Shown here piece after piece: positions 1-21,669 of a stretch of 23,934 nucleotides of DNA. The stretch lies in IMG/VR virus record IMGVR_UViG_3300027747_000535, positions 1 to 23,934 of that record; one strand, 5' to 3'. The stretch comes from a virus. The stretch's first letter is position 1. Every line of letters starts with the position of its first letter. The notes under the pieces are model-generated. The model was not told the DNA's origin and searched no databases. It worked only from the letters and a program-made list of their open reading frames with translations. Made by a program: the position numbers and the translations under genes.

Positions 1-750
1 GCTGGTCCTGATGAAATCAAAAAGGCTTATCGCAAGCTGGCCAGCCAACACCACCCGGATAAGGGAGGGGATAAGGCTAAATTCCAATCGATACAATCTG
101 CTTACGACACATTATCAGATCAACAAAAACGTAGTCAATACGATAATCCCATGCCACAAGGAATGCATTTTGAATTTAACAATGGCGGCGGCGGTTTTGA
201 TTTCAATAATATTTTCAGTATGTTTGGCGCTCAATTTCAGCAGCAACATCCAGGACATCAAACTCATACTCGCATGAGTCTGTGGGTTACATTACAAGAT
301 GTAGCACAGGGCGGAAAGCGGCCAGTTAATGTTGGCACACAACAAGGTTCCATGACTATTGAAATTGAAATCCCCCTAGGTCTTAATGACGGAGATAACA
401 TTCAGTATCCAGGCATTGGACCAGGAGGCACTGATTTGATTGTTAACTTTAGAATTCATCAACATCCAAAATGGCAACGCAACGGACTATCTTTAATAAC
501 CGATCACCAAATATCAGTGTGGGATTGTCTAGTTGGCGGCGAAACAACTATAAAAGATATATTGGGCAATCAATTGACATTATCTATTCCACCATTGACC
601 CAGCCCGGCAGTTTGTTACGGTTAAAAGGTAGAGGACTAGCATCACGACAAAATGCTCCAGGAGATTTATTAGTTCGAATCCATGCCAAAATGCCAAATA
701 AACTCAGCGATGATCTAGCCAATCTTATCAAAGAAGAACAAAAGAAGTAA
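1..750 (+). CDS. DnaJ/CbpA-like co-chaperone, 5' partial
   Basis: This is a J-domain co-chaperone that would stimulate host DnaK and pass it substrates. The frame is open from base 1, so the true start lies upstream; 249 residues are visible. The first ~45 residues are the J-domain from helix II on, with the HPD signature at visible residues 18-20 (QHHPDKGG) and a helix-IV-like end (QKRSQYDNP). A short Gly/Phe-rich linker follows ([12 protein letters not shown]), then two C-terminal beta domains (from about residue 95) with family motifs such as RLKGRG and GDLLVRI. There is no CxxCxGxG zinc finger, so it is the type II (CbpA-like) form. The clpA-like gene lies 63 nt downstream, which suggests a shared role in protein folding or turnover during infection. 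The family call is firm; the role in the phage is inferred. Confidence 0.9.
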
Positions 751-759
751 CCGTATCGC

Positions 760-788
760 TTGAATTTTTATTCAAAATACTATATACT
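760..788 (+). promoter_or_regulatory. Sigma70-like promoter for clpA-like gene
   Basis: A -35-like TTGAAT (760-765) and a -10 TATACT (783-788) are separated by exactly 17 bp. They sit in the gap after the dnaJ-like stop and 25 nt before the ATG at 814, with AAGGAA (805-810) as Shine-Dalgarno. The -35 box is also the left arm of a perfect inverted repeat, TTGAAT-TTTT-ATTCAA (760-775), which could serve as an operator. Prediction from sequence only. Confidence 0.6.
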
Positions 789-813
789 AGTACAGTACCA
801 CGCAAAGGAAAAC

Positions 814-3093
814 ATGCAAAACAATAAAGAAATCGAACAAGTTGTAGCCCAAGCTGTTAAATTGGCCAAGGATCGACATCACGAATATGTTTTAACTGAG
901 CACGTTTTATTGGCATTAATACGCCATGCTCCATTTCAAAAAGTACTAGCATCCTTTGGTACTAGTGTAGATTTATTAGACATGGAATTAGATGCCTATC
1001 TACACAGTTTAACCAGTTTAGTTACTAACAAAAAAGATTTTCAACCTAAAAAAACAAATGCCCTTGAGCGTTGTTTTAACAGGGCAATGACACAGGTATT
1101 GTTTACTGGTCGACGTTCGATGAACACCGGCGACTTATATCTTGCCATGATGTCCGAAACTAATTCGCACACTCATTATTTTTTATTAAAGTACGGCGTT
1201 AAGAAAAAAGAATTCATGGAATACTGGCAAGCCCACTATAAACATGATGATATCACCCTTACCAGCAGCCAAGCAGATGAAATTCTAACCGAATACTGTA
1301 TAAATTTAACCAAGCTGGCTGCTGAAGATCGTCTAGAGCCAATGATTGGCCGTAGTGAAGAACTCGACGAAATGATCACAGTACTAGCCCGCAAGTTCAA
1401 GGCCAATGTATTAATGGTAGGCGATCCTGGTGTAGGTAAAACTGCTATCGCAGAAGGCCTTGCCCAAGAAATTATGCACAATCGTGTGCCTACATTTTTA
1501 GCTGGACACGAAGTGTGGTCGTTAGAGGTTGGCTCACTACTTGCTGGCAGTAAGTATCGCGGCGAGTTCGAAGAAAAATTCAAACAAGTTATTGGCGCAT
1601 TAGAAACTAAAAAGAACTGTATTTTGTTTATCGACGAAGCACATACTATGAAAGGCGCTGGAGCAAGTACACAGAGTACGTTGGACTTTGCTAATATGTT
1701 AAAGCCTGCTATCACTAAAGGATATTTAAAAGTAGTAGCAAGTACCACATGGGAAGAATACTACGAATCCTTTGAAAAGGATCGTGCGTTGATGCGTCGA
1801 TTCCATCGTGTGAGCATTGATGAGCCAACACCAGAAGTTACAGAACAAATCTTAATTGGATTAAGCCCACGCTTGGAACAGTTCCACAATGTATTGATTG
1901 ACACCGATGCTATCAAAGCGGCTGTAGAACTCAGCGGCCGTTATATACACGACCGTAAAAATCCAGACAAGTCGATTGATTTATTAGATGGCGCTTGTGC
2001 TAAAGAGCGAGTCAAGGATCGGGGCAACGTTACTGTTAACAAAGAAATGATCATGGCGCAGTTAAGTCGTGTTACAGAAGTTCCTATGGATAGATTGCAA
2101 AATGAGCGTAGTGCTAATATCATGGAACTTGAAGGTAACATTAAACAAAAACTATATGGCCAAGATGAAGCTGTTGATTCAGTACTTGAGCGAGTATATA
2201 TTAACTTCTCGGGCATTGGCAACGACAATCGTCCTATCGCTAGTTTCTTATTCCTTGGGCCTACAGGTACAGGTAAAACTGAACTTGCTAAATTATTAGC
2301 ACAGAGTCTAGACATGCAGCTGTTAAAATACGACATGTCTGAATATCAAGAAAAACATACCGTAAGTAGTTTAATTGGTGCTCCTCCTGGCTATGTTGGC
2401 TTTGAAGATGGCAATGTAGGTGGTGGAAAACTTATTAGTGATATTAGTAAGAATCCTTATTCTATATTATTGTTTGACGAAATTGAAAAAGCACACCCAG
2501 ATGTTATCAACATTATGCTACAAATGTTAGACGAAGCCCGTGTTACTAGTGCTAACGGCAAAACTGTTAATCTTAAGAATACTATTATCATTATGACCAG
2601 TAACTTAGGTGCTCGTGATAATGAAAACAACAACATTGGCTTTGGAAAAACACTAGAGAAAACTGGATCAGAAGACAAAGCAATGAAAGACTTCTTCAAA
2701 CCAGAGCTACGCAATCGTATTGACCAAGTTTGTAAGTTTAAGAAACTTGATACACTTGCTATCAAGAAAGTTGTTCTTAAATTTGTTGATCAATTACAAG
2801 TTAGCCTTGGCAATAAAAATATTAAACTCAATCTAGCTGAATCAGTTATTGACATGCTAGCAGACAAAGGGTACGATCCTAAGATGGGTGCTCGTCCACT
2901 GAATCGTAAGATCGACGAACTTATTCGTGTTCCATTGAGTAAGAAGATATTATTTGAAAGGTTATCTGATTGCACTATTAATGCTGTTATGATTGACGAT
3001 AAGATTGATTTCGCAATCATACCATCAGCGCCCATGGCTCTGCTGGATAATTCTGGTATTATTGTGCTCGATGACGAATCCCCTGCAGTTTAA
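814..3093 (+). CDS. clpA: ClpA-type AAA+ unfoldase (Clp protease ATPase subunit)
   Basis: This is a double-ring ATPase that unfolds proteins and feeds them to ClpP. From the ATG at 814 it has 759 residues, close to E. coli ClpA (758). I chose that ATG over an in-frame TTG at 760 because AAGGAA lies just upstream and the TTG is part of the promoter. Residues 1-150 are a Clp-N domain. AAA+ module 1 has Walker A GDPGVGKT (203-210) and Walker B ILFIDEAH (~270-277); module 2 has Walker A GPTGTGKT (482-489) and Walker B ILLFDE (551-556). The ClpB-type middle coiled coil is absent. An IGF tripeptide at 608-610 sits where ClpA carries its ClpP-docking IGL loop; E. coli ClpX uses IGF. This suggests it docks on a ClpP, which is not encoded in this window. 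Confidence 0.93.
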   Translation: MQNNKEIEQVVAQAVKLAKDRHHEYVLTEHVLLALIRHAPFQKVLASFGTSVDLLDMELDAYLHSLTSLVTNKKDFQPKKTNALERCFNRAMTQVLFTGRRSMNTGDLYLAMMSETNSHTHYFLLKYGVKKKEFMEYWQAHYKHDDITLTSSQADEILTEYCINLTKLAAEDRLEPMIGRSEELDEMITVLARKFKANVLMVGDPGVGKTAIAEGLAQEIMHNRVPTFLAGHEVWSLEVGSLLAGSKYRGEFEEKFKQVIGALETKKNCILFIDEAHTMKGAGASTQSTLDFANMLKPAITKGYLKVVASTTWEEYYESFEKDRALMRRFHRVSIDEPTPEVTEQILIGLSPRLEQFHNVLIDTDAIKAAVELSGRYIHDRKNPDKSIDLLDGACAKERVKDRGNVTVNKEMIMAQLSRVTEVPMDRLQNERSANIMELEGNIKQKLYGQDEAVDSVLERVYINFSGIGNDNRPIASFLFLGPTGTGKTELAKLLAQSLDMQLLKYDMSEYQEKHTVSSLIGAPPGYVGFEDGNVGGGKLISDISKNPYSILLFDEIEKAHPDVINIMLQMLDEARVTSANGKTVNLKNTIIIMTSNLGARDNENNNIGFGKTLEKTGSEDKAMKDFFKPELRNRIDQVCKFKKLDTLAIKKVVLKFVDQLQVSLGNKNIKLNLAESVIDMLADKGYDPKMGARPLNRKIDELIRVPLSKKILFERLSDCTINAVMIDDKIDFAIIPSAPMALLDNSGIIVLDDESPAV

Positions 3094-3788: not shown

Positions 3789-4157
3789 ATGACGACTTAC
3801 ACTAACGAATCCTTATTACCAACTACAGTCTACGGAACTCCATCGGGTAACTATGACGGTACTAGTTCAGCATTTATAGGCAATGCTATACCAGCCGCAA
3901 ATTACTATGGCGGACAAGGATCAGCCCAAACAGCCTTAATTCAAACTACAGGGTTTACTGGCGTTATCACTATAGAAGCTAGTTTAAATGACTGGACACA
4001 ACAAGCTGAATGGTTTGCAGTGGAAACATACGGCAATGCTACAGTTCCTACTACAAACACGCAGGCTATCAATATGCTGGGCAATTTTGTATGGCTTCGT
4101 GCTCGTGTGACTGAATTTACAGCTGGCACGATCAACTCAGGAAATGTAATATTCTAA
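3789..4157 (+). CDS. Small probable virion structural protein
   Basis: A 122-residue protein rich in Thr, Ala, Gly, Asn and aromatic residues with alternating beta-strand patterns, as in phage decoration or fibre-type beta-sandwich domains. Visible elements are a Gly/Ala/Tyr-rich start (AIPAANYYGGQGSAQTAL), a central strand pair (TGVITIEASLNDWTQQAEWF) and an end of the type NFVWLRARVTEFTAGTIN. It has no Cys, signal peptide or membrane segment. The start is the only sensible ATG, preceded by a late-promoter-like element rather than a Shine-Dalgarno site, which fits a late gene. The structural role is an inference from composition, size and promoter type; I cannot assign a specific position in the particle. 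Confidence 0.6.
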   Translation: MTTYTNESLLPTTVYGTPSGNYDGTSSAFIGNAIPAANYYGGQGSAQTALIQTTGFTGVITIEASLNDWTQQAEWFAVETYGNATVPTTNTQAINMLGNFVWLRARVTEFTAGTINSGNVIF

Positions 4158-6032: not shown

Positions 6033-8174
6033 ATGAACATTGAACAATTAGAATCCTTCAATCTAGCAGATGCTGTAAAGTTTCACAATAAACTTAACCC
6101 CCTGATTTGGGATAAAAGCGAACATTTACATCCTGAAATCAGAGATCAATTATTAGAAATAGCCGCAGATTTTGGCGAGTTTCTTGGAGTGGATAATTTA
6201 AATTTAAAAGACATAACAATCTCGGGCAGTAATGCTGCTTTTTCATATACTCCACATTCTGACATAGATTTACATTTAATTGTAGACCTAGGCGATGAAG
6301 CACATAAGGACATATACCGTGAGTTGTTTGATGCTAAAAAGTTTATCTATAACACAGAACACAAGATTACTATTAAAGGTATTCCAGTTGAGTTATATGT
6401 ACAGGATGCCAACGAAAAACATCATAGTCAAGGAATTTATAGTATAGCGAACAACGATTGGATTCAAATTCCTCGCCGTAAGCAATCAGACATCGACGAT
6501 GTGAGTGTTCGTAGTAAGTATAAAGATTTAAGTAAGCGTATCAAAGAAGCTATCAAATCTAAATCACTAGAACAAATGACTAGTGTAATGGATAAAATAA
6601 AAGAAATGCGTGGAGCAGGGCTAGCTAGTCATGGCGAGTTTGGTCCAGAGAATTTAGCATTTAAATTGTTACGCAACAAAGGCGATTTAAAGAAACTACA
6701 TAATGCTCGCAAACAAGCAAAGAGTGTTGAGTTGAGTTTGAAAGAACGCAAACCACAACAGCCAACTACATATGGATTTGGGCCTGACTATATTGAAGAA
6801 GTTGGCATTACACCAGATGGTACTAATCCTACTACTTCTGAATTTACCAACGAAGCACAATTAGATGAAGTAGGCGTTACACCAGACGGCACTAATCCTA
6901 GTACTTGTATGTTTGCTAAAGAATCTAAAGATGACAAAAACATTATTCAAGATTTTGTTAATTTTTGTATCAATGAATTAGAATTAAAAAAAGAAATCAA
7001 TTTACGATTACGCCGTGATCCAGAATGGTGTGTTCGCAACAAAACATTTGGCCGATACAACGATACTACTAATGAATTAGAAGTAGGATTAGGCGGGCGT
7101 CATATCATGGATGTACTTAGAACCATAGCACACGAACTAGTACATCAAAAACAAAATGAAATGGCACCAGTACCAGATGATGCCGGTGAAGATGGCAGTC
7201 CCTACGAGAATGAAGCTAACGCTCGCGCAGGTGTGTTGATGCGTAAGTATGGTTCCGAACATCCTGAGCTGTTTATGGGTAGTGAATCACCTGAATCTTT
7301 TAAATCATTAAAAGAATATATTTCCATGGGTTCGGATAAAAATTTCCAAGAAGCAGAACCTTATAAAAATTATAAGATATATGTACGCAAAAAACCTTTT
7401 GGTAATACTGGAATATATACTGCTCATACAGAAATAGATCGTAAAGAATTCAAAGGCCAAGGCCAAACACAAGAAGAAGCAATTCAAGCTGCTCGTGACA
7501 AAATTGATTTTGTATTAAATGCCCAAAAGAAAGTTACTGGCTCTAGTACGATTGATTTTAATGTTAAATTTGCTACAGATTTATTAGCAGATCCTCGACA
7601 AACATTTTATGCTAAGTTAGAAAACATTGACGGCGGGCCTAAATTAATAATTGCTGGTCCAGATATTGTAGCAGATCCAGAATTATTGGCTGCCGGCGAC
7701 TTTAAGAAAAGTACGTTAAGACATCAAGTTGACGATACTGGCAACACTACTCCTTTACCAGGCATTCCGTTATCTGCTAAAAGTCTTAGGGCTGGTGAGT
7801 GGATAGCCAATGGTAGATATACTATTGGTAATGAGACTACAGATCGCGATGGTAACCGGGTGTTTGATTTAACTTATCATAGTACAGCACATACTAAAAG
7901 CGATAAACTACGATTAACTCAACCAGCATTTACTTTAGGCACTAATCGTGAAATCAGTGAAGCTAGTGGCTATATACCTACAGCCGCACAAGCTCACGAT
8001 CCACGCTTTGAAATGGCACTTACTGTAGACATTCGCCCAGGAGCATTAGGCAAGAATGCCAACAAGTTATTGCTAAACACAGATAGTCAAGGGCATCCAC
8101 AAGAACTGCGCCCAGACGGCATTGTAAAAAGAATGATGGAAGAATTAGAATTATTTAAAAGGAATTATCAATGA
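6033..8174 (+). CDS. Nucleotidyltransferase-metallopeptidase fusion protein
   Basis: A 713-residue multidomain protein. Residues ~1-235 hold a pol-beta/MNT-type nucleotidyltransferase: GS at 65-66, SDIDLHLIVD at 76-85 (Asp77 and Asp79 as metal ligands) and a plausible third acidic residue in IPVELYVQD (118-126). Residues 256-293 are a linker with two copies of a VG(I/V)TPDGTNP motif. Residues ~300-430 hold a zinc metallopeptidase-like domain with HELVH (367-371) and a downstream acidic cluster YENEANARAG (391-400) that may supply the third ligand, gluzincin style. The remaining ~280 residues contain unrecognised domains, with prohead-protease-like sites FQE440|A and ISE643|A between them. Targets are unknown; a toxin-like or head-cargo role is an inference. 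The start is set by GCTAAATA 5 nt upstream, and the gp88-like gene overlaps its end by 4 nt. Confidence 0.8.
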   Translation: MNIEQLESFNLADAVKFHNKLNPLIWDKSEHLHPEIRDQLLEIAADFGEFLGVDNLNLKDITISGSNAAFSYTPHSDIDLHLIVDLGDEAHKDIYRELFDAKKFIYNTEHKITIKGIPVELYVQDANEKHHSQGIYSIANNDWIQIPRRKQSDIDDVSVRSKYKDLSKRIKEAIKSKSLEQMTSVMDKIKEMRGAGLASHGEFGPENLAFKLLRNKGDLKKLHNARKQAKSVELSLKERKPQQPTTYGFGPDYIEEVGITPDGTNPTTSEFTNEAQLDEVGVTPDGTNPSTCMFAKESKDDKNIIQDFVNFCINELELKKEINLRLRRDPEWCVRNKTFGRYNDTTNELEVGLGGRHIMDVLRTIAHELVHQKQNEMAPVPDDAGEDGSPYENEANARAGVLMRKYGSEHPELFMGSESPESFKSLKEYISMGSDKNFQEAEPYKNYKIYVRKKPFGNTGIYTAHTEIDRKEFKGQGQTQEEAIQAARDKIDFVLNAQKKVTGSSTIDFNVKFATDLLADPRQTFYAKLENIDGGPKLIIAGPDIVADPELLAAGDFKKSTLRHQVDDTGNTTPLPGIPLSAKSLRAGEWIANGRYTIGNETTDRDGNRVFDLTYHSTAHTKSDKLRLTQPAFTLGTNREISEASGYIPTAAQAHDPRFEMALTVDIRPGALGKNANKLLLNTDSQGHPQELRPDGIVKRMMEELELFKRNYQ
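6801..6911 (+). repeat. Tandem linker repeat in the fusion protein
   Basis: Two coding repeats, 6801-6842 and 6870-6911, encode VGITPDGTNPTTSE and VGVTPDGTNPSTCM. Both are preceded by an acidic (I/L)-x-E-V step (YIEEV, QLDEV). The nucleotide copies differ at several third positions, so the duplication is old or maintained at protein level. They form the linker between the nucleotidyltransferase and peptidase domains. Confidence 0.75.
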
Positions 8175-9328
8175 AAGCCCTTGAATTTATTTTTGAATCT
8201 GCACAAACAACCTTAGGCGGATTCAAAGTTAAACCGTTACACATCGAAGATCAAGATGTAGATGAAGCTATTGGATTAAATGCTCCACATCGCCGCATGA
8301 GTCGCGATGAATTACAGGGCTATGCTAATCGTATCAAGACTGGCACAAAAACTAAAAAAGATAGATTTGCTCCTATTATACATGGTAGCAATATCAAGGC
8401 AATTACCAAAGATGACAACGGTACAGAATGGGATTTAGATGATTTAGCCCGGCAAATTACCACCCGCCCTCGTTCATTGTTAGGCACTAATGCTAAGATG
8501 AGTAAGAGTGCTACTGAGGGTGAAATTGTTTATGACTTAACATTGCCAGCATTAAGTGGAGTTGTAGTCGATGAGGAAACAAGCGACTTTGTAGAAATTA
8601 CTACTTGTCCAGGCGCAGGCGGTTGTCAGCTATTCTGTTATGCTCGTAAAGGTGGCTATGTGATGTTCCCAGCTAGTAGTATGTCAGCTGCACAAGCATT
8701 AAACTTTTTAGTTAACGATCCTCCTGGCTACATGGCTATGGTCAATAAAGAGATACAAGGTCTTAAAGGTAAAACAGACAAACATGGAATCAGATTAGTT
8801 GTGCGTTGGCATGACGCGGGCGATTTCTTTAGTAAAGAATATCTAGATTTAGCGTTTAATGTCGCTCGTCAAAATCCAGATGTGAAATTTTATGCTTATA
8901 CCAAAATGGCCGATGTTGCTACTGCCAATAAACCGGCTAATTTTATTGTTAATTTTAGTTCTGGTAGTAAGCGCGGCGAGGAAAAGAAAATTGAACTACA
9001 CAAGGCACAAGGTAATGCAGTTAAAGATGCGGTAACATTGCCTAAAGATATGTTCCGTACATTATTTGTTACAGATCCTAAAGGCAAATATGTTAAAGAT
9101 GAAAAAGGTCGCACACAAGTTAAAAGTCCTGAAGCATGGGACGAATTTAAAAAGACGCTGGCTGCTAAGTACAAAATTGATCCTAATTCAATTATCACAT
9201 ACGATCAGATGTTGACCGTTCCTGAAGGTCCACAACCTAAGTGGAATGTAGTTATATTCCCAGCAGGACACGGAGACCGTGCTGCTAACAGATTAGATGT
9301 AATTAATAGTTTCTTAATGTTCCACTAA
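8171..9328 (+). CDS. Gene product 88-like family protein
   Basis: A 385-residue protein resembling the uncharacterised phage gene product 88 family. The central signature is TTCPGAGGCQLFCYARKG (144-161), three cysteines spaced C-x5-C-x3-C, followed by RWHDAGDFFSKEYLD (212-226) and KFYAYTK (239-245). The Cys triplet followed by a barrel-like order of strands suggests a metal or Fe-S site, but no reaction is known and I infer none. The N-terminus MKALEFIFES fits the capsid-targeting pattern seen in this operon, with a possible cut IFE9|S10. Its ATG overlaps the upstream stop (ATGA), and the deaminase gene starts 1 nt after its stop. A role inside the virion is inferred from this N-terminus and context only. 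Confidence 0.72.
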   Translation: MKALEFIFESAQTTLGGFKVKPLHIEDQDVDEAIGLNAPHRRMSRDELQGYANRIKTGTKTKKDRFAPIIHGSNIKAITKDDNGTEWDLDDLARQITTRPRSLLGTNAKMSKSATEGEIVYDLTLPALSGVVVDEETSDFVEITTCPGAGGCQLFCYARKGGYVMFPASSMSAAQALNFLVNDPPGYMAMVNKEIQGLKGKTDKHGIRLVVRWHDAGDFFSKEYLDLAFNVARQNPDVKFYAYTKMADVATANKPANFIVNFSSGSKRGEEKKIELHKAQGNAVKDAVTLPKDMFRTLFVTDPKGKYVKDEKGRTQVKSPEAWDEFKKTLAAKYKIDPNSIITYDQMLTVPEGPQPKWNVVIFPAGHGDRAANRLDVINSFLMFH

Positions 9329-9329
9329 C

Positions 9330-9998
9330 ATGATTCTAAACGACTTTGCTCAGCCCAAATCAAAATTTAGCAATGACAAGCTGGACGCAGTCTTGGCTGA
9401 ACTATGTGGGTTAGTATTACAGGGTCAAAAAGAAGATCCTGAACTCAATGGTCGTGTTGGTGCCGCTGTACTAGATCCACGGGGTAGATTAGTTACAGGT
9501 GTGGGATATAAACACGATGGCAAGTCAGTACACGGTGAATACTCGGCTATAGAAAATTATGAAAACGAATATGGCGAACTGCCAAAAGGTTGTATAATCA
9601 TAACAACTCTTAGTCCATGTAACGAATCGCATGATAAAACAGCCGCTGAGCGATATGGCCAAAGTTGTACTGACTTATTAAACTCAAAACATATCAAAAT
9701 GGCCTATTGTGGTTATGGAGACTATACTCAAGATGGCGATCAACATAAATTCACTGTGGTTATAACAAGCAATGACAAAATTAAAGAATTATGTAAAAAA
9801 ATAGCTGATACATTTTTGAAAAGATTAAGTGAAAATTTTGCAGATGGTAAAGGGCCTGGCCGCCCAGGCGATAGTCAACGCCACGGTATTTCTAAAGGTG
9901 CTAGTATGGCCGAATTAGAAAAAGCCAGTCATAGTAAAGGGCGTAAAGGCCAGCTAGCTCGTTGGCAAATAAATATGCGTAGAGGAAAAAAGAAATGA
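9330..9998 (+). CDS. CDA/RibD-fold zinc deaminase with basic tail
   Basis: A 222-residue cytidine-deaminase-fold protein. The zinc and proton-transfer residues are visible as HGE (68-70, where HAE is usual), SPC (Cys97) and a second Cys at 113 in YGQSC, giving C-x15-C instead of the common C-x2-C or C-x8-C; RibD-like and some phage deaminases also have long gaps. The core covers about 15-150. From ~170 a separate basic module follows (NFADGKGPGRPGDSQRHG, then ARWQINMRRGKKK), which looks like a short modular tail of the kind attached to unrelated phage late proteins. The substrate (free nucleotide, pterin/flavin precursor or nucleic acid) cannot be told. The next gene overlaps its stop by 4 nt. 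Confidence 0.75.
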   Translation: MILNDFAQPKSKFSNDKLDAVLAELCGLVLQGQKEDPELNGRVGAAVLDPRGRLVTGVGYKHDGKSVHGEYSAIENYENEYGELPKGCIIITTLSPCNESHDKTAAERYGQSCTDLLNSKHIKMAYCGYGDYTQDGDQHKFTVVITSNDKIKELCKKIADTFLKRLSENFADGKGPGRPGDSQRHGISKGASMAELEKASHSKGRKGQLARWQINMRRGKKK

Positions 9999-10837
9999 AA
10001 ATCAATGAAATATTAACAGAGGCTACCAAACAGCGATTAGATCCTAAGTGCTGGAAAGGCAAGCACAAGGAAGGCACCAAGATCAAAGGTGGCGTCCGTG
10101 TTAACAACTGTGTACCTAACGAATCAGTTGAAGAAGACTGGAGTAAAAAATATAAATCCAGTATAAACTGTAGCCATCCCAAAGGTTTTAGTCAAAAGGC
10201 TCATTGTGCTGGCAAGAAAAAACACAATGAAGATATCACTATGGAAATGACTTGCCCGGACTGCGGTATGTGTCAAACTCATGGTACACTAACCGAAATT
10301 AAGAAGGGCCAAAAAGATAGCAACGGCTACACTAAATGCTGGCCTGGCAAACATGCCGAAGGCACTAAGAAAGGCAAAAATGGTGGTCAAGTCCGTAATT
10401 GTGTGCCAAATGAGAGTGAAGAACTAGATGAAGAGTTTGATTTAATAGAGTCTATTATTAATAATCTTGCTAATCGTAATCAAGTAGATCCAGAAGTAAT
10501 TTGGGAAGATTTAGAATCACTCACCGACGACGAACTATATGTATTTGCTGCTACAATGCCAATTATGGAAGATTGGCAAAAGGCTAATAAGAAGGACAAG
10601 ACAGATGGCATGAGTCAAAAGGCTGTTAACTCGTATCGCCGTGAACATCCTGGCTCAAAATTAAAAACTGCCGTGACTACTAAGCCTAGTAAGTTAAAGA
10701 AAGGGAGCAAAGCCAGTAAGCGTCGCAAGAGCTATTGTAGTCGTAGCAAGGGTCAGATGAAGATGCACAGTATTAGTTGTGCCAAGACTCCAGACAAAGC
10801 TATCTGTAAAGCACGGCGCCGTTGGAACTGTGAATGA
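9995..10837 (+). CDS. Cys-rich modular protein with duplicated CW..NCVPNES motif
   Basis: A 280-residue, strongly basic protein built from small cysteine modules. The N-terminus MKINEILTE|A matches the T4 capsid-targeting peptide and cleavage rule, cutting after Glu9. Two related modules run from a CW to NCVPNES (19-44 and 115-141). Between them are a C-x11-C segment (59-71) and CPDCGMC (87-93), which could bind zinc. An acidic helical segment (142-190) leads to a C-terminal domain from about 205 (GMSQKAVNSYRREHPGSKL) with four cysteines (248, 262, 271, 279), ending in ARRRWNCE. Similar small basic C-terminal modules occur in many phage proteins of unknown function (DUF6321-like, from memory). 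A DNA-condensing or internal-head role fits its charge but is not proven. Confidence 0.7.
   Translation: MKINEILTEATKQRLDPKCWKGKHKEGTKIKGGVRVNNCVPNESVEEDWSKKYKSSINCSHPKGFSQKAHCAGKKKHNEDITMEMTCPDCGMCQTHGTLTEIKKGQKDSNGYTKCWPGKHAEGTKKGKNGGQVRNCVPNESEELDEEFDLIESIINNLANRNQVDPEVIWEDLESLTDDELYVFAATMPIMEDWQKANKKDKTDGMSQKAVNSYRREHPGSKLKTAVTTKPSKLKKGSKASKRRKSYCSRSKGQMKMHSISCAKTPDKAICKARRRWNCE
10046..10417 (+). repeat. Duplicated Cys module (two copies)
   Basis: Copy 1 at 10046-10126 and copy 2 at 10334-10417 encode K-C-W-x-G-K-H-x-E-G-T-K ... NCVPNES. The spacing between the two cysteines is nearly conserved (19 and 20 intervening residues), and the copies are separated by a different Cys-containing segment. 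Confidence 0.75.
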
Positions 10838-11427
10838 GATTTTTTGAAATAGCCCGTATTCCTGCTGGCGATTTCGGTGACGCAGATACTATAACACCAC
10901 AAGAAGAACCCAAGGGATCTAAGCCCTTGCCAGGCGGTAGCGGATACAAATATCATGTGGATCGCAAAGGCAATGATCGTTTAGAAATTACTTTATATGA
11001 CCAGGGTCGAATTATTGCCGAATTAGATTTAGAAGAACTAGGGGCTCCTGTCCCACTTTGGCAAGTTGATACCGTTGCTGCTATTCCTGAATATCAGGGT
11101 AAGGGCTTGGGCATGGCATTGTATGGAATAGCCCTAAGTGTTTTGAAGTTGACTTTAGTAGCAGGAGCTACACAAACTGTACACGGCGCTCGCCAATGGC
11201 TCAAACTCAGTCAAATACCCGGCGTAGAAGCCATGGGCATGAAAACTGCTCCTAAACAAGATTTTAAACAGGGGCCGGATAACATAGTATTATGGTCGGG
11301 TCCTGAAATGATTACTTACACATTTCCTATAACACAGGGATCTAAATCAATGAAAAGTGCCCAACGCGGCACGGGAATATATAATTCAGCTGGCGCAACA
11401 ATGATTGCTAAATGGACCGGCAAGTAA
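10834..11427 (+). CDS. GNAT-family N-acetyltransferase
   Basis: A 197-residue protein with the acetyl-CoA-binding motif A of the GNAT fold: strand VDTVAAIPEYQGKGLGMALY (78-97), in which QGKGLG (88-93) is the R/Q-x-x-G-x-G/A loop. An N-terminal beta-rich part (38-70) precedes it. The C-terminal third does not resemble common GNAT endings. The N-terminus MRFFEIARIPAG has the hydrophobic/acidic pattern of the neighbouring genes but lacks a clean (I/L)-x-E cleavage site. GNAT enzymes acetylate amines on proteins, sugars or antibiotics; the target here is unknown. Its ATG overlaps the upstream TGA. Confidence 0.8.
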   Translation: MRFFEIARIPAGDFGDADTITPQEEPKGSKPLPGGSGYKYHVDRKGNDRLEITLYDQGRIIAELDLEELGAPVPLWQVDTVAAIPEYQGKGLGMALYGIALSVLKLTLVAGATQTVHGARQWLKLSQIPGVEAMGMKTAPKQDFKQGPDNIVLWSGPEMITYTFPITQGSKSMKSAQRGTGIYNSAGATMIAKWTGK

Positions 11428-11446: not shown

Positions 11447-11638
11447 ATGCGATTATATGAAATTGTAGGTTTACAAGAAACAACCGTGAGTGGTAGCATT
11501 GCTACTGTAGCCATGCCCTTGGGCCCAGTACAGCGTAGAATACCGCCAGATAGCCTATTTCAAGGTAAATATACTACCGACTCAAATCTGACGCCAAACA
11601 CGCCGGATTGGATGAAAAAATTTAAAGGGAAGAAGTGA
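11447..11638 (+). CDS. Small 63-aa protein with capsid-targeting-like N-terminus
   Basis: A 63-residue protein not recognised as any family. The frame opens at 11405, but the ATG at 11447 is preferred because GCTAAATA ends 5 nt before it and because it gives MRLYEIVGLQE|T, which fits the N-terminal pattern of the neighbours. The rest is Pro/Thr/Ser-rich and apparently disordered, ending in a basic tail (WMKKFKGKK). It may be a small internal head protein. Its TGA overlaps the ATG of the dps gene by one base (TGATG), so the two are translationally coupled. Confidence 0.65.
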   Translation: MRLYEIVGLQETTVSGSIATVAMPLGPVQRRIPPDSLFQGKYTTDSNLTPNTPDWMKKFKGKK

Positions 11639-12078
11639 TGTTAGCTAACTTAATGAAAATCCTATTAGCCAGTGACTTTAGTTACTATCTAAAGGCGCAC
11701 TTTTTCCACTGGAATATAGAAGGTAAAGATTTTTATCAATATCATAAATTCTTACAAAAAGTCTACGAAGATGCTTATGAAGCTGTAGACACTATTGCTG
11801 AATTTATCCGTACTCTTGACGAATATGCTCCAGGTAGCCTAGTTCGTTATCACGAATTAACTCGTATTCAAGACCAAACCAAAGTGCCAAGAGCACAGCT
11901 CATGATGGAAGAATTACTAGCTGATTCCCATACTATGGTCGCACTCCTTAATGAATGTTTTGCCGCTGCTGAGGCAGAGAACAAGCAAGATATCGCAAAT
12001 TTTATCGCTGAAAGATTAACTGCTACTAATAAGTTTATATGGATGTATCAAAGTTTTTTAAGAGAGTCTAGAGCATAA
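11638..12078 (+). CDS. dps: Dps-like ferritin with intact ferroxidase site
   Basis: A 146-residue Dps-family protein (four-helix ferritin-like fold). Dps proteins assemble as dodecamers that oxidise and store iron and protect DNA from Fenton damage. The ligands of the inter-subunit ferroxidase centre are all present with the spacing known for the family: His24 (in FFHWNIEG), His36 (YQYHKF), Asp51 and Glu55 (AVDTIAEF), i.e. H-x11-H-x14-D-x3-E. The length is slightly below typical Dps (about 150-170), with no Lys-rich DNA-binding tail at the N-terminus. I chose the ATG that overlaps the upstream TGA over a GTG 3 nt earlier. It ends TAATG into the next gene. A host-derived origin followed by use as phage cargo is an inference. 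Confidence 0.85.
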   Translation: MLANLMKILLASDFSYYLKAHFFHWNIEGKDFYQYHKFLQKVYEDAYEAVDTIAEFIRTLDEYAPGSLVRYHELTRIQDQTKVPRAQLMMEELLADSHTMVALLNECFAAAEAENKQDIANFIAERLTATNKFIWMYQSFLRESRA

Positions 12079-13046
12079 TGGATCATGAGTTTTTAAGCAT
12101 CGTAGAAAAATTAGCTATCCTCGAAGGGCGCATTGCTCCAAAGGAAAGTAAAGCTATTGTTGAAACTTCAACCAAGCAAAAGAAACCAGCCCTTTTTAAT
12201 AATCTTAAAAAAGATGAATCTGCTATGCCCATGGTAGGCGGAGTAGAGTTTGCTGAAGATAAAATGGAAGAAGATGTATTGGGTCGAGTAAAAGCTAGTC
12301 TTGCTGACTATCTTAAGTCTGCTGAAGAAAATTTAAAGCACGATACTGATCTTATTGCTAAGAAAAAACAAGATTTAGATTTAAAGAAAAAAGAATTAAA
12401 AGATTTAACATTACAAGCCAAACAAGGTGTTAAAGAAGCCATTCCAATGACATTAGAAGAAGCTCCACAACTTGAAATAGGTGACCCTGTTTGCGTTGTA
12501 GGGCCTAATCATTATGAAGGCGAATTTGGCGAAGTTGTAGAATTCTCCCCATCGGGTAAATTTGTTGTAATTAAATTTAGAGACGGCGATGAAGCCAGCA
12601 TGCACATTTCAGATGTTGAACTTACTAGTGATGAATCAGACTGGGATGATGAAGACGATGGCGTTATGTTTGAGCCACCAAAAAATAAAAATCATAGTAT
12701 ATACAAAAACGAAGATGAGATAGACGAAGATCCAAATCAAACTCCAGCACAAGGTGAAGCCCCTGCTGGATTAACAGATCCTACATACGCAGAAAGTATA
12801 ACAGCTCCAGTTAAAACTGTTAATGTTCCTACAGAAGAAGTAGGACTTAGTGGCGGTGGTGGAAGTGTGTTAGTTGAAATACACGGCGACGAGCGCGATG
12901 GGTTTTGTATTAAGAGAGCCGGTAAAGAACTACCAACTCGTTTTAAGAGTTTAGAAGAATGTGAAATAGCACTAGAAATGTACATGGCTCGCGCTAAAGC
13001 TAAACAAGCTGCTGAACAGTCTGCCGATTATATAGAAGAAAAATAA
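12078..13046 (+). CDS. Acidic coiled-coil protein with KOW-like domain
   Basis: A 322-residue acidic protein of modular build. The N-terminus MDHEFLSIVEKLAILE|G contains a prohead-protease-like site after Glu16, and VKE120|A and LEE128|A flank the next module. Residues 75-115 are a Lys/Glu-rich coiled coil. Residues 132-181 form an SH3/KOW-like beta barrel (GDPVCVVGPNHYEGEFGEVV) with a distant counterpart in the next gene. A poly-acidic stretch (182-198) and a Pro/Thr linker lead to a C-terminal domain (262-305). A precursor that is cut into pieces, like T4 head core or internal proteins, fits this layout. Function otherwise unknown. It starts at TAATG overlapping dps. Confidence 0.7.
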   Translation: MDHEFLSIVEKLAILEGRIAPKESKAIVETSTKQKKPALFNNLKKDESAMPMVGGVEFAEDKMEEDVLGRVKASLADYLKSAEENLKHDTDLIAKKKQDLDLKKKELKDLTLQAKQGVKEAIPMTLEEAPQLEIGDPVCVVGPNHYEGEFGEVVEFSPSGKFVVIKFRDGDEASMHISDVELTSDESDWDDEDDGVMFEPPKNKNHSIYKNEDEIDEDPNQTPAQGEAPAGLTDPTYAESITAPVKTVNVPTEEVGLSGGGGSVLVEIHGDERDGFCIKRAGKELPTRFKSLEECEIALEMYMARAKAKQAAEQSADYIEEK

Positions 13047-13047
13047 T

Positions 13048-15948
13048 ATGAATTTATTTGATTTGTTTGAAGGAGCCATTGACGACCTTGAAGCTCGTCG
13101 TATTGAGGATCTAGAAATGAAAATGGACGACTTAACCGCTCGTGCCAAAACAACTGATGATCCAAAAGTTAAACTAGCACTTCGTCATGAGTTTGCTAAA
13201 TGTAAAGCTGAGCGTGATAGTTATCACAAACTAAATGTGGAAGAAGAAACAGACACAAACTATACCTACACAGTTTTTATTGATGGCACTAAAGAAGGTA
13301 CCTACGGTAGTAAAGAAGAAGCTAAAGCTGTAGTCAAGCGTAAAAAAGAACAAGCACCAGGTAGAACGTATACTATTAGACCAAAGAGTCGTACTAGTAT
13401 GTCTAGTATTAAAAAGTTTCAGCATAACAGAGATCGTAATATTGACGAAGATGACTTAGTTACAGCTGAAGGGTTTGCGTTAGATGCTAAACCAGATGAG
13501 CGTGATTTAGATCCAGTTAATAAATGGAAATTTATGGTAAGACAGATAATTGCTGATTACATTAAGAATCCACAGGGATTGTATCATATAGCCAAACAAA
13601 AAGGTCCCGATAGTGCCGAAGCAACAGCATATAATCAGATTATGCATCCTGGAAGTAAAATTCCTCTGCCACCCAACGCAGTTACATTTGAAGGTTATGT
13701 GCCTCTTGACAAGTATAGTCCAACCGCTGTTTGTCTATCTGGCAAGCCTGTTAAAAAGTTTGACTACTATAAAGATGCTGAAAACTTTTATAAAAACTGG
13801 AAACAAAAGTTGTATCGTGAAGGCAACAAAGAAAAAGCAGATAAGATTACTTTAATGCCAATGAATCTTAAAGAATTTGCTCCAAGACCAGAGCGTGATG
13901 ATGAGGAAGTACCTAATCAAATTTTAACATTGGCAAATCGTTGGTGGAATGCTGGCGACAAACAACCGCAAATTACTAATGTATTACGTAGTTTAGGATG
14001 GACTATCAGTCAAGTTGATTCAGAAGAAGAAGATGCTGTACAACTGACACACAACGATGGCACAACTTATGTTATTAGTGCCGATGAATTTGATCCCGAA
14101 CTGTTTGAAGCCGCTAATCCAGCACAGCAGGCCGCTATTGCCATTGCTATGAAAAAACATCATGAAAAACCAAAAAATATAGCGGAGGGTGATTATGACG
14201 GAATGTATAGTCCTGAAGCCATTAAGATAGGAAATTATTTCATTAAACAATTTAATTTAACTGATGAACTTGACCAACAATTAGCTATTGAGATAACTAA
14301 CAACGTCATAGAAAGTGGAGAAACTGAACTAGCGGTAATTAAAAAAGAAGTAATTAAATACTTAAGAAAAAGTGGAACCATTGTAAAAAATTCAAAACAA
14401 GGTATGTCCGAGGACGAACAAATTGATGGCATGGCTCGCGGCGAAGTAAAAGAAATTATTCGCAATGCCAGCACCATTCAACAGGCATTGGATCAGGGTA
14501 TCAGTTTAGATGGTTGGATGTATAGCTATGTTACTACTAGCAATGATCATTTAAACAGCGTGGCAGAACAAATTGGTAATCCTGACATCGAAGAAGCAAG
14601 TATGACATGGGCTGCACACAAATCAACAGGGCCAAAGTTTAGTGGCTACTTAAAAGGCACAGATCCAGCTCCTACTGAATTTGGCAACAAGAGTGTTGGT
14701 GGGATGGAAGAAGGTATTGACGGTAACATGACTGCTCGCAGTAATCCGTTAACACAGCCATTAAGAAAACGCCAGCATATGAACAAGAACACACAAGTAT
14801 CCTTGGGCAAACACAATAACAATTTAAAAGCGGCAGCAGCTCGTTCGTTAGACGAAATGACCAACGATGAAATCGCTAAACTTCGTAGTGATGCTGAAGC
14901 GCATATGACAAAACAAATGAATGCTCCTAAAAAACCACAACCTAGTAAATCATTTATGCAACAAGTTGGCGACAAACAAATTGGCATGGTCAAAGGTGCT
15001 TGGAAAGGCTTAACAGGTCAACTTGAAGAAGACGATATGGAAGAAGGTTGGAAAAATACTGTTGCTGGCGCTGCTTTAGCAGGCGCAGCCGCACTAGGTG
15101 CTGGTGGCGCACACGCAGGTGGTGTAAGTACTACAGGACAAGGGTTTTCCATGGACGACCAAATGGCTCTTAATCAACAAATGCAACAACGAGTTCAACA
15201 ACAATATGATCAAGCCCAACAACAAAGGCCACAAGCTCCTACGGCCCAAAAAGATTTAAGTGCGTTTGGTACAGAATATTTACAAAAGGTAGCTGATGGC
15301 CAAGGCGGCCGTGCTATGGTTAGTGTCGCAGATGCTAAAGCAGAATTAGCCGCTAGAGCAAATGGTACCAGTCAACAAGCCCCTGCTCCAGTAAAAGCCC
15401 CTGCTCAAAATGACGGGCAGTATAAATCTTTAGGCGATTATTATAAAGCAAACCCAGGCGTTAGAGAATCTTCAGATAATTTCTTATCATGGGCAGTTCG
15501 TAACGGCTACAATTTTACTAAAGATCCAGCTATTTACGAGTCAGCTAGAATGGAATACAAAGCTCTAATTGAATCTAAAAAAAAGACATTAAAAGAAGCT
15601 AAAGGTTTAGGTAAAAGAGTTCGAGTAGTTAGTGGCCCAGCTAGTGGTCAAACTGGTACCGTTGGCGAAGTTCGCAATGGCGCATATCAAGGTGCTCCAA
15701 AATATTACACAGTAGACTTAGATAACGGCGGCCATGTACAAGTTCGCAAAGAAGCATTAAAATTAATAAAAAGTGAAATAGACGAAAGTTTAAAAGACAA
15801 CGAATATTTTGTTTGGACCGTTTATTTTGATGATGGTACTAGTAAGCGTATCAAAGTTAAATCTGACGAATTTGATCCTTACGCCTATTATGCTAGAAAA
15901 AATCAAGTAGTAGTAAATGTAGATTACGATTGGACAATACATCAATAA
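13048..15948 (+). CDS. 966-aa putative polyprotein of head-internal modules
   Basis: A 966-residue protein of unknown family made of several small modules. It opens MNLFDLFE|G, a T4-like targeting and cleavage signal. Further sites of the (I/L/M)-x-E|A/G/S type occur after residues 354, 380, 516, 555, 666, 850 and 913. Visible modules are a beta domain (71-112), an aromatic helical domain (~155-275), a domain at 288-350, a helical domain (~390-510), an Ala/Gly-rich hydrophobic segment (TVAGAALAGAAALGAGGAHA, 671-690) directly after the 666 site, a Gln-rich linker (708-730), a possible helical domain (790-835), a KOW-like domain (853-905) and a C-terminal beta domain (918-962). The pattern suggests a precursor cut by the prohead protease. 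A membrane-active role for the Ala/Gly segment is speculative. Confidence 0.7.
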   Translation: MNLFDLFEGAIDDLEARRIEDLEMKMDDLTARAKTTDDPKVKLALRHEFAKCKAERDSYHKLNVEEETDTNYTYTVFIDGTKEGTYGSKEEAKAVVKRKKEQAPGRTYTIRPKSRTSMSSIKKFQHNRDRNIDEDDLVTAEGFALDAKPDERDLDPVNKWKFMVRQIIADYIKNPQGLYHIAKQKGPDSAEATAYNQIMHPGSKIPLPPNAVTFEGYVPLDKYSPTAVCLSGKPVKKFDYYKDAENFYKNWKQKLYREGNKEKADKITLMPMNLKEFAPRPERDDEEVPNQILTLANRWWNAGDKQPQITNVLRSLGWTISQVDSEEEDAVQLTHNDGTTYVISADEFDPELFEAANPAQQAAIAIAMKKHHEKPKNIAEGDYDGMYSPEAIKIGNYFIKQFNLTDELDQQLAIEITNNVIESGETELAVIKKEVIKYLRKSGTIVKNSKQGMSEDEQIDGMARGEVKEIIRNASTIQQALDQGISLDGWMYSYVTTSNDHLNSVAEQIGNPDIEEASMTWAAHKSTGPKFSGYLKGTDPAPTEFGNKSVGGMEEGIDGNMTARSNPLTQPLRKRQHMNKNTQVSLGKHNNNLKAAAARSLDEMTNDEIAKLRSDAEAHMTKQMNAPKKPQPSKSFMQQVGDKQIGMVKGAWKGLTGQLEEDDMEEGWKNTVAGAALAGAAALGAGGAHAGGVSTTGQGFSMDDQMALNQQMQQRVQQQYDQAQQQRPQAPTAQKDLSAFGTEYLQKVADGQGGRAMVSVADAKAELAARANGTSQQAPAPVKAPAQNDGQYKSLGDYYKANPGVRESSDNFLSWAVRNGYNFTKDPAIYESARMEYKALIESKKKTLKEAKGLGKRVRVVSGPASGQTGTVGEVRNGAYQGAPKYYTVDLDNGGHVQVRKEALKLIKSEIDESLKDNEYFVWTVYFDDGTSKRIKVKSDEFDPYAYYARKNQVVVNVDYDWTIHQ

Positions 15949-19986: not shown

Positions 19987-21669
19987 ATGAGCCAAGACAA
20001 TCTCACTAACAAACAATCTGACTATGCTGTGTTCTTGCCAGCATTGTCAGGTTTTTTTGGAACCTACATAGGCAAACAGCGTGGCGGACAGTATGTCGAG
20101 CAAGCTCGCATGCCAAAGAATATCCAAGATATGGAAATGCTCAACTGGCTTAATGCTCAGAAAGGTCTATTCACATATAAATGGAGTTTGTATTCCGCAG
20201 GCCATGCAAACCTAGATCTTAGTAAGCAAGATTGGAACGAAGACATGATTCGTAATCGAGATCGTGCTAATACTTTTGTCTTAGGCGACTCGGGTGGATT
20301 CCAGATTGGTAAAGGTGTGTGGGAAGGTGAGTGGCGTGACCCTAATGGAGCGGAAGTAAAAACTAAAATGGCCGAAGCTATCGCCAAGGGTATCGAACAT
20401 GTTCCATCGTTGAAACCAGATGGTACACCTAAGCATGACAAAAACGGTAATACAAAATATACTAAAATTGATCATGTAAAAGAATATCAAGCTAAGTTAG
20501 ATGCGGCGCAGAAAAAGCGTGAAGCAGTATTAAAGTGGATGGATGGTATCATGGATTATGGCATGGTACTCGATATTCCAGCTTGGGTCGAACGCAGTCC
20601 TGTTGGTCGTAAAGCTACTGGTATCGAAAGCTATCAACAAGCTGTAGAAGCTACAAAATATAATAACGAATACTTTATTGCCAATCGTAATGGTAACTGT
20701 AAGTTCTTAAATGTATTACAAGGCGAGAATCACGCACAAGCGGAAGATTGGTATCAGCAGATGAAACATTTCTGTGATCCAACAAAATATGGTAATAAAG
20801 CATTTAATGGTTGGGCCATGGGCGGTCAGAATATGTGTGATGTAGACTTAGTATTACGCAGACTAGTCGCATTAAAATTTGATAACTTGTTACAAGAAGG
20901 ACAGCATGATTGGATGCACTTCTTAGGTACAAGTAAATTAGAATGGGCACTATTATTAACTGACATCCAACGAGCTGTACGCAAGTATGTCAATCCAAAT
21001 TTTACTATTAGTTTTGATTGTGCTAGTCCATTCTTAGCAACTGCTAATGGACAAGTATATCATCAAGTTGATATACAGGATCGAGGTAAATGGTGTTATC
21101 GTATGAGTGCTATTGTGGACGATAAGAAATATGCCGCCGACACACGCAAATTTAGTACTGCTGTATTACAAGATAAATTAATACATCACTTTGATGATAG
21201 TCCTGTTAGTGATAATTTAGAAATTAAAGACATTTGTTATTATGCGCCTGGTATGCTTAACAAGATTGGCAAGGAAGGTAAAACTAGTTGGGATTCATTT
21301 TCTTACGCATTGCTCATGGCACATAATGTCTGGTTACACTTAGAATCTGTACAAAGAGCTAATCGTGAATACGATGCTGGCAAATGTCCTAATATGTTAG
21401 TACAAGATAATTTTGATGTCATATATTTTAAAGATATAGTAGAAGCTATATTTGCGGCTCCTGATCGCGAAACAGCTATTGCTATCATTGATATGTACGA
21501 TAAATTCTGGCAAGCTATTCCTGGAACTAGAGGCTATACTGGTAAACGAACTGTTAATGCTAGTACTAACTTTAACAATCTGTTCGAAACAGTTGAAGAG
21601 GAAGAAGAACAACATCCTATTGATGACTCTGGATTCGATGAATCTAAACTAGATGCGTTGGAAGCATAA
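19987..21669 (+). CDS. dpdA: DpdA-like DNA-guanine transglycosylase (TGT family)
   Basis: A 560-residue member of the tRNA-guanine transglycosylase superfamily, of the type (DpdA) that exchanges guanine in DNA for a 7-deazaguanine. TGT landmarks appear in order: VLGDSGGFQIG (98-108, general-base Asp101), VLDIPAWVE (194-202, Asp196), NVLQGEN (242-248), WAMGGQNM (276-283), HFLGTSK (311-317) and the nucleophile region ISFDCASPF (341-349, Asp344). Residues ~107-185 carry an insertion absent from tRNA enzymes, and no clear TGT zinc-binding Cys cluster is seen. In phages this modification blocks restriction enzymes. No preQ0 synthesis gene (folE, queD, queE, queC) lies in the window, so precursor comes from elsewhere in the genome or from the host. 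It is coupled (TAATG) to two dehydrogenase-like genes. Confidence 0.85.
   Translation: MSQDNLTNKQSDYAVFLPALSGFFGTYIGKQRGGQYVEQARMPKNIQDMEMLNWLNAQKGLFTYKWSLYSAGHANLDLSKQDWNEDMIRNRDRANTFVLGDSGGFQIGKGVWEGEWRDPNGAEVKTKMAEAIAKGIEHVPSLKPDGTPKHDKNGNTKYTKIDHVKEYQAKLDAAQKKREAVLKWMDGIMDYGMVLDIPAWVERSPVGRKATGIESYQQAVEATKYNNEYFIANRNGNCKFLNVLQGENHAQAEDWYQQMKHFCDPTKYGNKAFNGWAMGGQNMCDVDLVLRRLVALKFDNLLQEGQHDWMHFLGTSKLEWALLLTDIQRAVRKYVNPNFTISFDCASPFLATANGQVYHQVDIQDRGKWCYRMSAIVDDKKYAADTRKFSTAVLQDKLIHHFDDSPVSDNLEIKDICYYAPGMLNKIGKEGKTSWDSFSYALLMAHNVWLHLESVQRANREYDAGKCPNMLVQDNFDVIYFKDIVEAIFAAPDRETAIAIIDMYDKFWQAIPGTRGYTGKRTVNASTNFNNLFETVEEEEEQHPIDDSGFDESKLDALEA

Follow-up and report, generated by a model that had tools for sequence, protein, structure and literature searches.

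The window analysed here (the whole stretch of 23,934 nucleotides, a 24-kb fragment that constitutes a virus record) encodes a Dps-type mini-ferritin with a complete set of ferroxidase ligands. Judged from gene order and protein architecture, three arrangements appear to tie the phage clade of this protein to the phage head: a cluster of genes with a capsid-targeting-like tag, a packaging operon, and protein fusion. Since the ligands are intact throughout these arrangements, the likeliest role of the protein is that of an iron- and peroxide-removing cage in or at the prohead. We modestly favour a model in which this ferroxidase cage would be made late, recruited to the prohead and protect the packaged DNA. 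The virus itself is best explained as a T4-like freshwater phage of bacteria; T4-type gp23 and gp21 are present in three related genomes, and neither gene was seen in the 24-kb fragment. The features of the window are listed in Table 1.

Table 1. Features of the window around the Dps gene. CTS, capsid-targeting sequence.
Feature	Position	Strand	Remarks
GP88-family protein, strict CTS-like start MKALEFIFES	8171..9328	+	Pfam PF17338 2.2e-35
Late-promoter-like octamer AATAAATA, T4 type	9968..9975	+	CTS gene at 9995 begins 27 bp downstream
DUF6321 protein, CTS-like start MKINEILTEA	9995..10837	+	Pfam PF19846 4.4e-9
197-aa protein, start MRFFEIARI, weak CTS resemblance	10834..11427	+	Fails the motif tests
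Basic mini-protein, 63 aa, pI 9.8	11447..11638	+	N-terminus MRLYEIVGLQE, CTS-like
Dps-type mini-ferritin, 146 aa	11638..12078	+	Pfam/PHROG, HP-NAP register, AlphaFold2, structure matches, dN/dS
Dps ligand codons	His24 11707, His36 11743, Asp51 11788, Glu55 11800		
Acidic modular protein, 322 aa, pI 4.6	12078..13046	+	Start overlaps the Dps stop
966-aa protein, start MNLFDLFEGA (CTS-like variant)	13048..15948	+	Similar large protein follows in most relatives

The Dps reading frame opens with an ATG at 11638, with an alternative GTG at 11635, and ends with the stop codon at 12076-12078. Its product matches Pfam PF00210 (Ferritin; E 3.7e-20, 72.7 bits against a curated cut-off of 24.5) and PHROG 3636 (1.3e-29) and, by sequence, the solved Dps proteins PA0962 of P. 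aeruginosa (8ff9), HP-NAP of H. pylori (1ji4) and MrgA of B. subtilis (2chp). In an ungapped alignment, for which the query began one codon upstream, His24, His36, Asp51 and Glu55 correspond to His25, His37, Asp52 and Glu56 of H. pylori NAP, and the protein fits the ligand pattern H-x11-H-x14-D-x3-E. The four ligands are invariant in an alignment of 45 diverse relatives and are kept in 83 of 83 distinct relatives. This bears out the sequence-only reading, which had proposed a complete ligand set with exact Dps spacing and had named ligands out of register as the finding that would speak against it; all four are in register with HP-NAP with no gap. One extra residue is found between His36 and Asp51 in 16 of the 83 distinct relatives, with the ligands retained. 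This insertion (EVYDNSIDRTAE), carried by L100, L105, L110, L112 and 12 other distinct relatives, may form a bulge in the helix next to the ferroxidase site.

The AlphaFold2 monomer, modelled from an input alignment of 45 sequences, has a pLDDT of 96 and predicted helices at residues 2-26, 32-59, 68-74, 86-113 and 117-141, which form a four-helix bundle plus a short BC helix. It shares this subunit architecture and the identical ligand spacing with the three bacterial proteins named above, at Z 22-23 against solved Dps structures and 26-32% identity, and its best structural matches are dodecameric. The protein would assemble as a 12-subunit cage, and its residues suggest a catalytically competent inter-subunit di-iron ferroxidase. 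The gene is under purifying selection, with a median pairwise dN/dS of 0.066 over 64 pairs.

Unlike its bacterial counterparts, the window Dps is tail-less, acidic, encoded by a T4-like phage, placed in a phage clade of its own and coupled to a tagged mini-protein; it also falls below the NCBIfam cut-offs for Dps equivalogs (40.6 bits for NF006975, the E. coli-type equivalog, under a cut-off of 114). The chain begins at helix A, in agreement with the earlier claim that an N-terminal DNA-binding extension is lacking, and it has no lysine-rich tail, the C-terminus being LRESRA. With a pI of 5.3 and a net charge of -6 (median pI of the relatives, 4.95), and with no tails, the protein is therefore unlikely to bind DNA in the manner of E. 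coli Dps.

Relatives are encoded by at least 591 stretches among the 600 matches listed in an alignment search, so the Dps family is common, and they sit on contigs of up to 524 kb. Among isolated phages no close relative was found, the best match reaching 31.5%. The recurrent gene order among the relatives is mini-protein, Dps, acidic protein and a large protein of the MNLFDLFE type. The stop/start coupling of Dps to a 63-aa basic protein and an acidic protein, as read earlier from the window, is real: mini-protein and Dps overlap in TGATG (11636-11640), Dps and acidic protein in TAATG (12076-12080). The acidic protein belongs to a conserved family that immediately follows Dps in 76 relatives and has no Pfam or PHROG family. 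It comprises an N-terminal helix, a long helix, a small beta domain (aa 137-182) and an ordered C-terminal part (aa 246-321), in an AlphaFold2 model that is confident in part only (pLDDT 68). In one relative, the acidic partner (L092:3943-4557) carries a motif like that of gp23 and the mini-protein, AENTTSGGMAPMAMP, near its C-terminus.

Other genes of the neighbourhood vary in how far they are shared. The DUF6321 domain is found next to Dps in further phages, and one protease-Dps fusion also contains it. The 197-aa protein holds YQGKGLGMALYGIAL, which by eye resembles motif A of GNAT acetyltransferases, and it has no Pfam match. A conserved protein of ∼95 aa (MKQFVRVLCDVDCEWEG..YRVYVNDELFAERTW) is encoded ∼0.5 kb before Dps in L002-L032; it precedes the mini-protein in most relatives and is absent from the window and from L023. 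At 151-3093, the phage encodes, in this order, a protein resembling the DnaJ C-terminal region and an AAA+ ATPase of the ClpA/ClpB-like type that has a Clp_N domain; the ATPase matches PHROG 4871 ('ATP-dependent protease') at 5.5e-235. The 560-aa product of 19987-21669 resembles by eye tRNA-guanine transglycosylases of the DpdA type (DSGGFQ motif), with no NCBIfam, Pfam or PHROG match; this likeness hints at 7-deazaguanine DNA modification.

The closest partner of Dps is the mini-protein. A protein with an SGxIA motif (50-75 aa in nearly all cases) is encoded upstream of Dps in 73 of the 83 distinct relatives. In 70 of the 73 the end of its gene overlaps or directly adjoins the beginning of Dps, and another gene intervenes in the remaining three. 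The two genes lie ∼0.5-0.8 kb apart in L009, L013 and L075, and the gap in L009 and L013 holds a reverse-strand ORF that is homing-endonuclease-like by eye. About 10 of the 83 have no detectable mini-protein, and at least one relative, L017, has one that the search pattern missed; in some of the relatives without it, a larger CTS protein directly precedes Dps. The family is basic (median pI 10.05), shares the N-terminus M-R-x-x-E-F/I-I/M-x-E, has no match among isolated phages and belongs to no Pfam or PHROG family. In the window mini-protein a candidate protease site, L9-Q10-E11/T12, is followed by the gp23 N-arm-like segment SGSIATVAMPLGPVQRR, and the prohead protease would be expected to cleave at this LQE/T junction.

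The likeness to gp23 extends through the residues that follow the tag. In the related genome G001, the junction and N-arm of gp23, the major capsid protein (LKENATSGSTASGNIAT), and the post-tag segment of the mini-protein (LKEEASSGSTSSGSIAT) are alike, and none of 1000 shuffles reached the score of this pair or of the window pairs. An HMM of the gp23 N-terminus, searched against the 1,775 proteins of these loci, matched gp23 and 66 of 72 mini-proteins (best 5.6e-5), and the reverse search from the mini-protein matched gp23 at 1e-6 (hhalign 91.7%). The mini-protein of G002 gave no match to that genome's own gp23, which is of a different, more diverged subtype. The common segment consists of the 28 residues adjoining the tag and corresponds to the cleavage junction plus the N-arm. 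That the prohead protease or the capsid handles the mini-protein gains independent support from this likeness. The targeting-like N-terminus ascribed earlier to the 63-aa basic partner is supported, its signal matching the gp23 cleavage junction as well as the capsid-targeting sequence of T4.

In T4 itself, ten N-terminal residues are enough for incorporation into the head, and cleavage by gp21 takes place after L/I-x-E (PMC9026906). A loose N-terminal motif, tried first, showed little enrichment. The strict CTS motif that took its place was built from T4 IPII and IPIII, which begin MKTYQEFIAE and serve as its positive control; the motif definitions were made after inspection of the sequences, and the gene calls were made in this analysis. 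The strict motif is present in 18 of 71 mini-proteins and the looser one, which the window mini-protein carries, in 59 of 71. Strict matches were also found for 49 of 410 other Dps neighbours, compared with 0 of the 602 genes that lie outside these neighbourhoods in three related genomes and ∼0 in shuffled N-termini. The 61 proteins that bear the strict tag have bodies falling into 21 unrelated clusters, which fits the expectation for a tag. Within the window, the tag is clearest on the genes that start at 8171 (strict) and at 9995 and 11447 (looser). Strictly tagged neighbours elsewhere include a PARP-like protein (L130:1994-2965, below cut-off), a protein with a cytidine-deaminase domain (L021:2076-2867) and a LysM protein (L134:2066-2827); like Alt of T4, these might be packaged in the head or injected.

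Searches with other Dps proteins brought up further groups of phage Dps genes, some of which are linked to head genes in other ways. In clade B, Dps stands between terS and terL in three loci and directly after CTS-tagged genes in others (at least 9, by eye), and DUF6321 is present in 20 of 62 loci. Several clade B loci (L243, L246, L248, L257 and others) encode proteins of ∼75-100 aa directly upstream of Dps, at the place of the CTS mini-protein; by eye, each shows a single transmembrane helix and a tail rich in lysine. In clade D, Dps is fused in frame to a head-maturation protease in at least 7 distinct ORFs (L494, L523, L528, L530, L540, L541, L544) and, in L512, to a portal-containing polyprotein, with the ferroxidase ligands intact in both kinds of fusion. 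Three structure-library matches named 'Prohead protease' agree with the Dps-protease fusions. In L520, Dps is fused to a non-head domain. No capsid-targeting sequence was found at the Dps start in any clade A Dps inspected.

The comparison with bacterial Dps proteins by phylogeny, suggested in the sequence-only reading, placed clades A, B and D and the fusions in one phage clade (SH-aLRT 97), in a tree of 146 columns with many open forks. This clade is set apart from the sampled bacterial Dps, except for one MAG contig (L152), and from the cyanophage group. For this tree, L148, a 'bacterial' match with phage neighbours and a CTS gene before Dps, was treated as phage, and L149, a 'bacterial' match with nearly the same protein in viral contigs, was excluded from the bacterial set. 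The clade C Dps of cyanophage S-SRM01 falls outside the A/B/D clade, and its annotated neighbours are non-head genes.

The earlier placement of Dps in a late operon held in part. In related genomes, the T4-type late-promoter octamer TATAAATA is concentrated 10-39 bp upstream of gene starts. In the window, the only late-promoter-like octamers near gene starts are AATAAATA, ahead of the gene of the cluster that begins at 9995, and CATAAATA, at a distance of 15 bp from the start at 3789. The single exact TATAAATA of the window stands before the DNA polymerase gene and none stands before Dps. In the favoured model, the window copy of Dps would be made late.

These observations can be set against two known head systems. 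Like the internal head proteins of T4 (IPI, IPII, IPIII and Alt, with a CTS and gp21 processing), the mini-protein is small and basic with a CTS-like start, and the cluster neighbours likewise carry the tag on unrelated bodies. Unlike them, the mini-protein, a putative head protein, shows no sequence relationship to this group outside the tag; it is similar to the gp23 junction and forms a pair with Dps, and the window Dps itself has no tag. Relatives of Dps occur as domains fused to the HK97-type prohead protease (Peptidase_S78), whereas the window Dps is free-standing and belongs to phages whose protease is of the gp21 type.

We propose that the Dps cage would assemble in the cytoplasm, made late together with a cargo set like the internal head proteins. 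Dps lacks its own tag, so the simplest route would be recruitment through the translationally coupled mini-protein; with its CTS and gp23-like segment, the mini-protein would most likely bring the cage to the prohead core. The prohead protease would then trim the mini-protein, and the cage would be enclosed before DNA packaging. Inside the head, the cage would oxidise Fe(II) with H2O2 or O2 and keep hydroxyl radicals off the genome. Recruitment by the mini-protein, the presence of Dps in the virion and the protection of DNA are each presumed steps of this scheme. A Dps dodecamer is ∼9 nm across. A whole cage could be enclosed while the core assembles but, the portal being ∼3 nm wide (PMC9026906), would then have to stay in the head or dissociate, and action within the particle is therefore likelier than injection. 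The suggestion that Dps might be carried in the head stands in part: the CTS cluster, the terS-terL placement and the fusions to prohead protease and portal speak for it, and the lack of a CTS on Dps speaks against it.

The main rival to packaging is a cytoplasmic Dps, whose active ferroxidase would, up to lysis, shield replicating phage DNA and host metabolism against peroxide and iron; its placement among head genes would then reflect shared late expression only. We regard this as a serious possibility, if not the probable one. It would account for a Dps without a CTS and for the position of the clade C gene away from head genes, and infection by another phage strongly induces host dps and catalase. 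It is also how Dps genes reported from Lactobacillus myophages (PMC6669764) and Gratiaviridae (PMC8008677) are interpreted, namely as protecting the host during infection. These genes and the S-SRM01 record likewise represent phage-encoded members of the Dps family, host-protecting or left uninterpreted, and a head-cargo context is not described in the accessible parts of these sources. What a purely cytoplasmic role leaves unexplained is the near-invariant pairing with one tag-bearing mini-protein and the in-frame joining of Dps to prohead protease or portal.

Other explanations fare less well. The short motif might be some other N-terminal sorting or cleavage signal, in which case the cluster would not be head cargo; the similarity to the T4 CTS spans only 9-10 residues and the cleavage site is a candidate. 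We consider this unlikely, as the mini-protein also shares the 28-residue gp23 segment, T4-type gp23 and gp21 are present in related genomes, and in clades B and D the link between Dps and head genes does not depend on the motif. A cage that coats phage DNA like E. coli Dps, for compaction or as a shield against restriction, is suggested by the fold and by the label 'DNA binding protein' of PHROG 3636, but the missing lysine-rich tails at both ends and the acidic charge of the window protein and its relatives make it very improbable; the basic mini-protein could supply the DNA contact. That the gene is an artefact, or a decaying capture from the host, is refuted by the purifying selection, the ligands kept in all relatives, the phage-specific clade and the hundreds of viral loci, and no point in its favour was found.

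Packaging of the cage remains our preferred reading. A more specific version, a virion ferritin brought in by a capsid-targeted adaptor that copies the gp23 junction and N-arm, while other lineages fuse Dps to the prohead protease or portal, is put forward tentatively and with some doubt. Phage Dps proteins are already known, and in the open-access literature we found no earlier report of Dps in phage virions, of Dps-prohead protease fusions or of an association with the head. To our knowledge, no antioxidant iron enzyme has previously been shown to be packaged along with phage DNA; Dps would, if true, be the first. Sunlit fresh water exposes free phages to peroxide and iron, and if Dps is a head component, the particles would not be chemically passive but would carry a catalyst along with their genome. 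In uncultured T4-like phages, the locus also reveals a large set of putative CTS-tagged cargo, including LysM, PARP-like and deaminase-like proteins, and the short N-terminal motif that these proteins share makes the internal-protein repertoire of such phages searchable.
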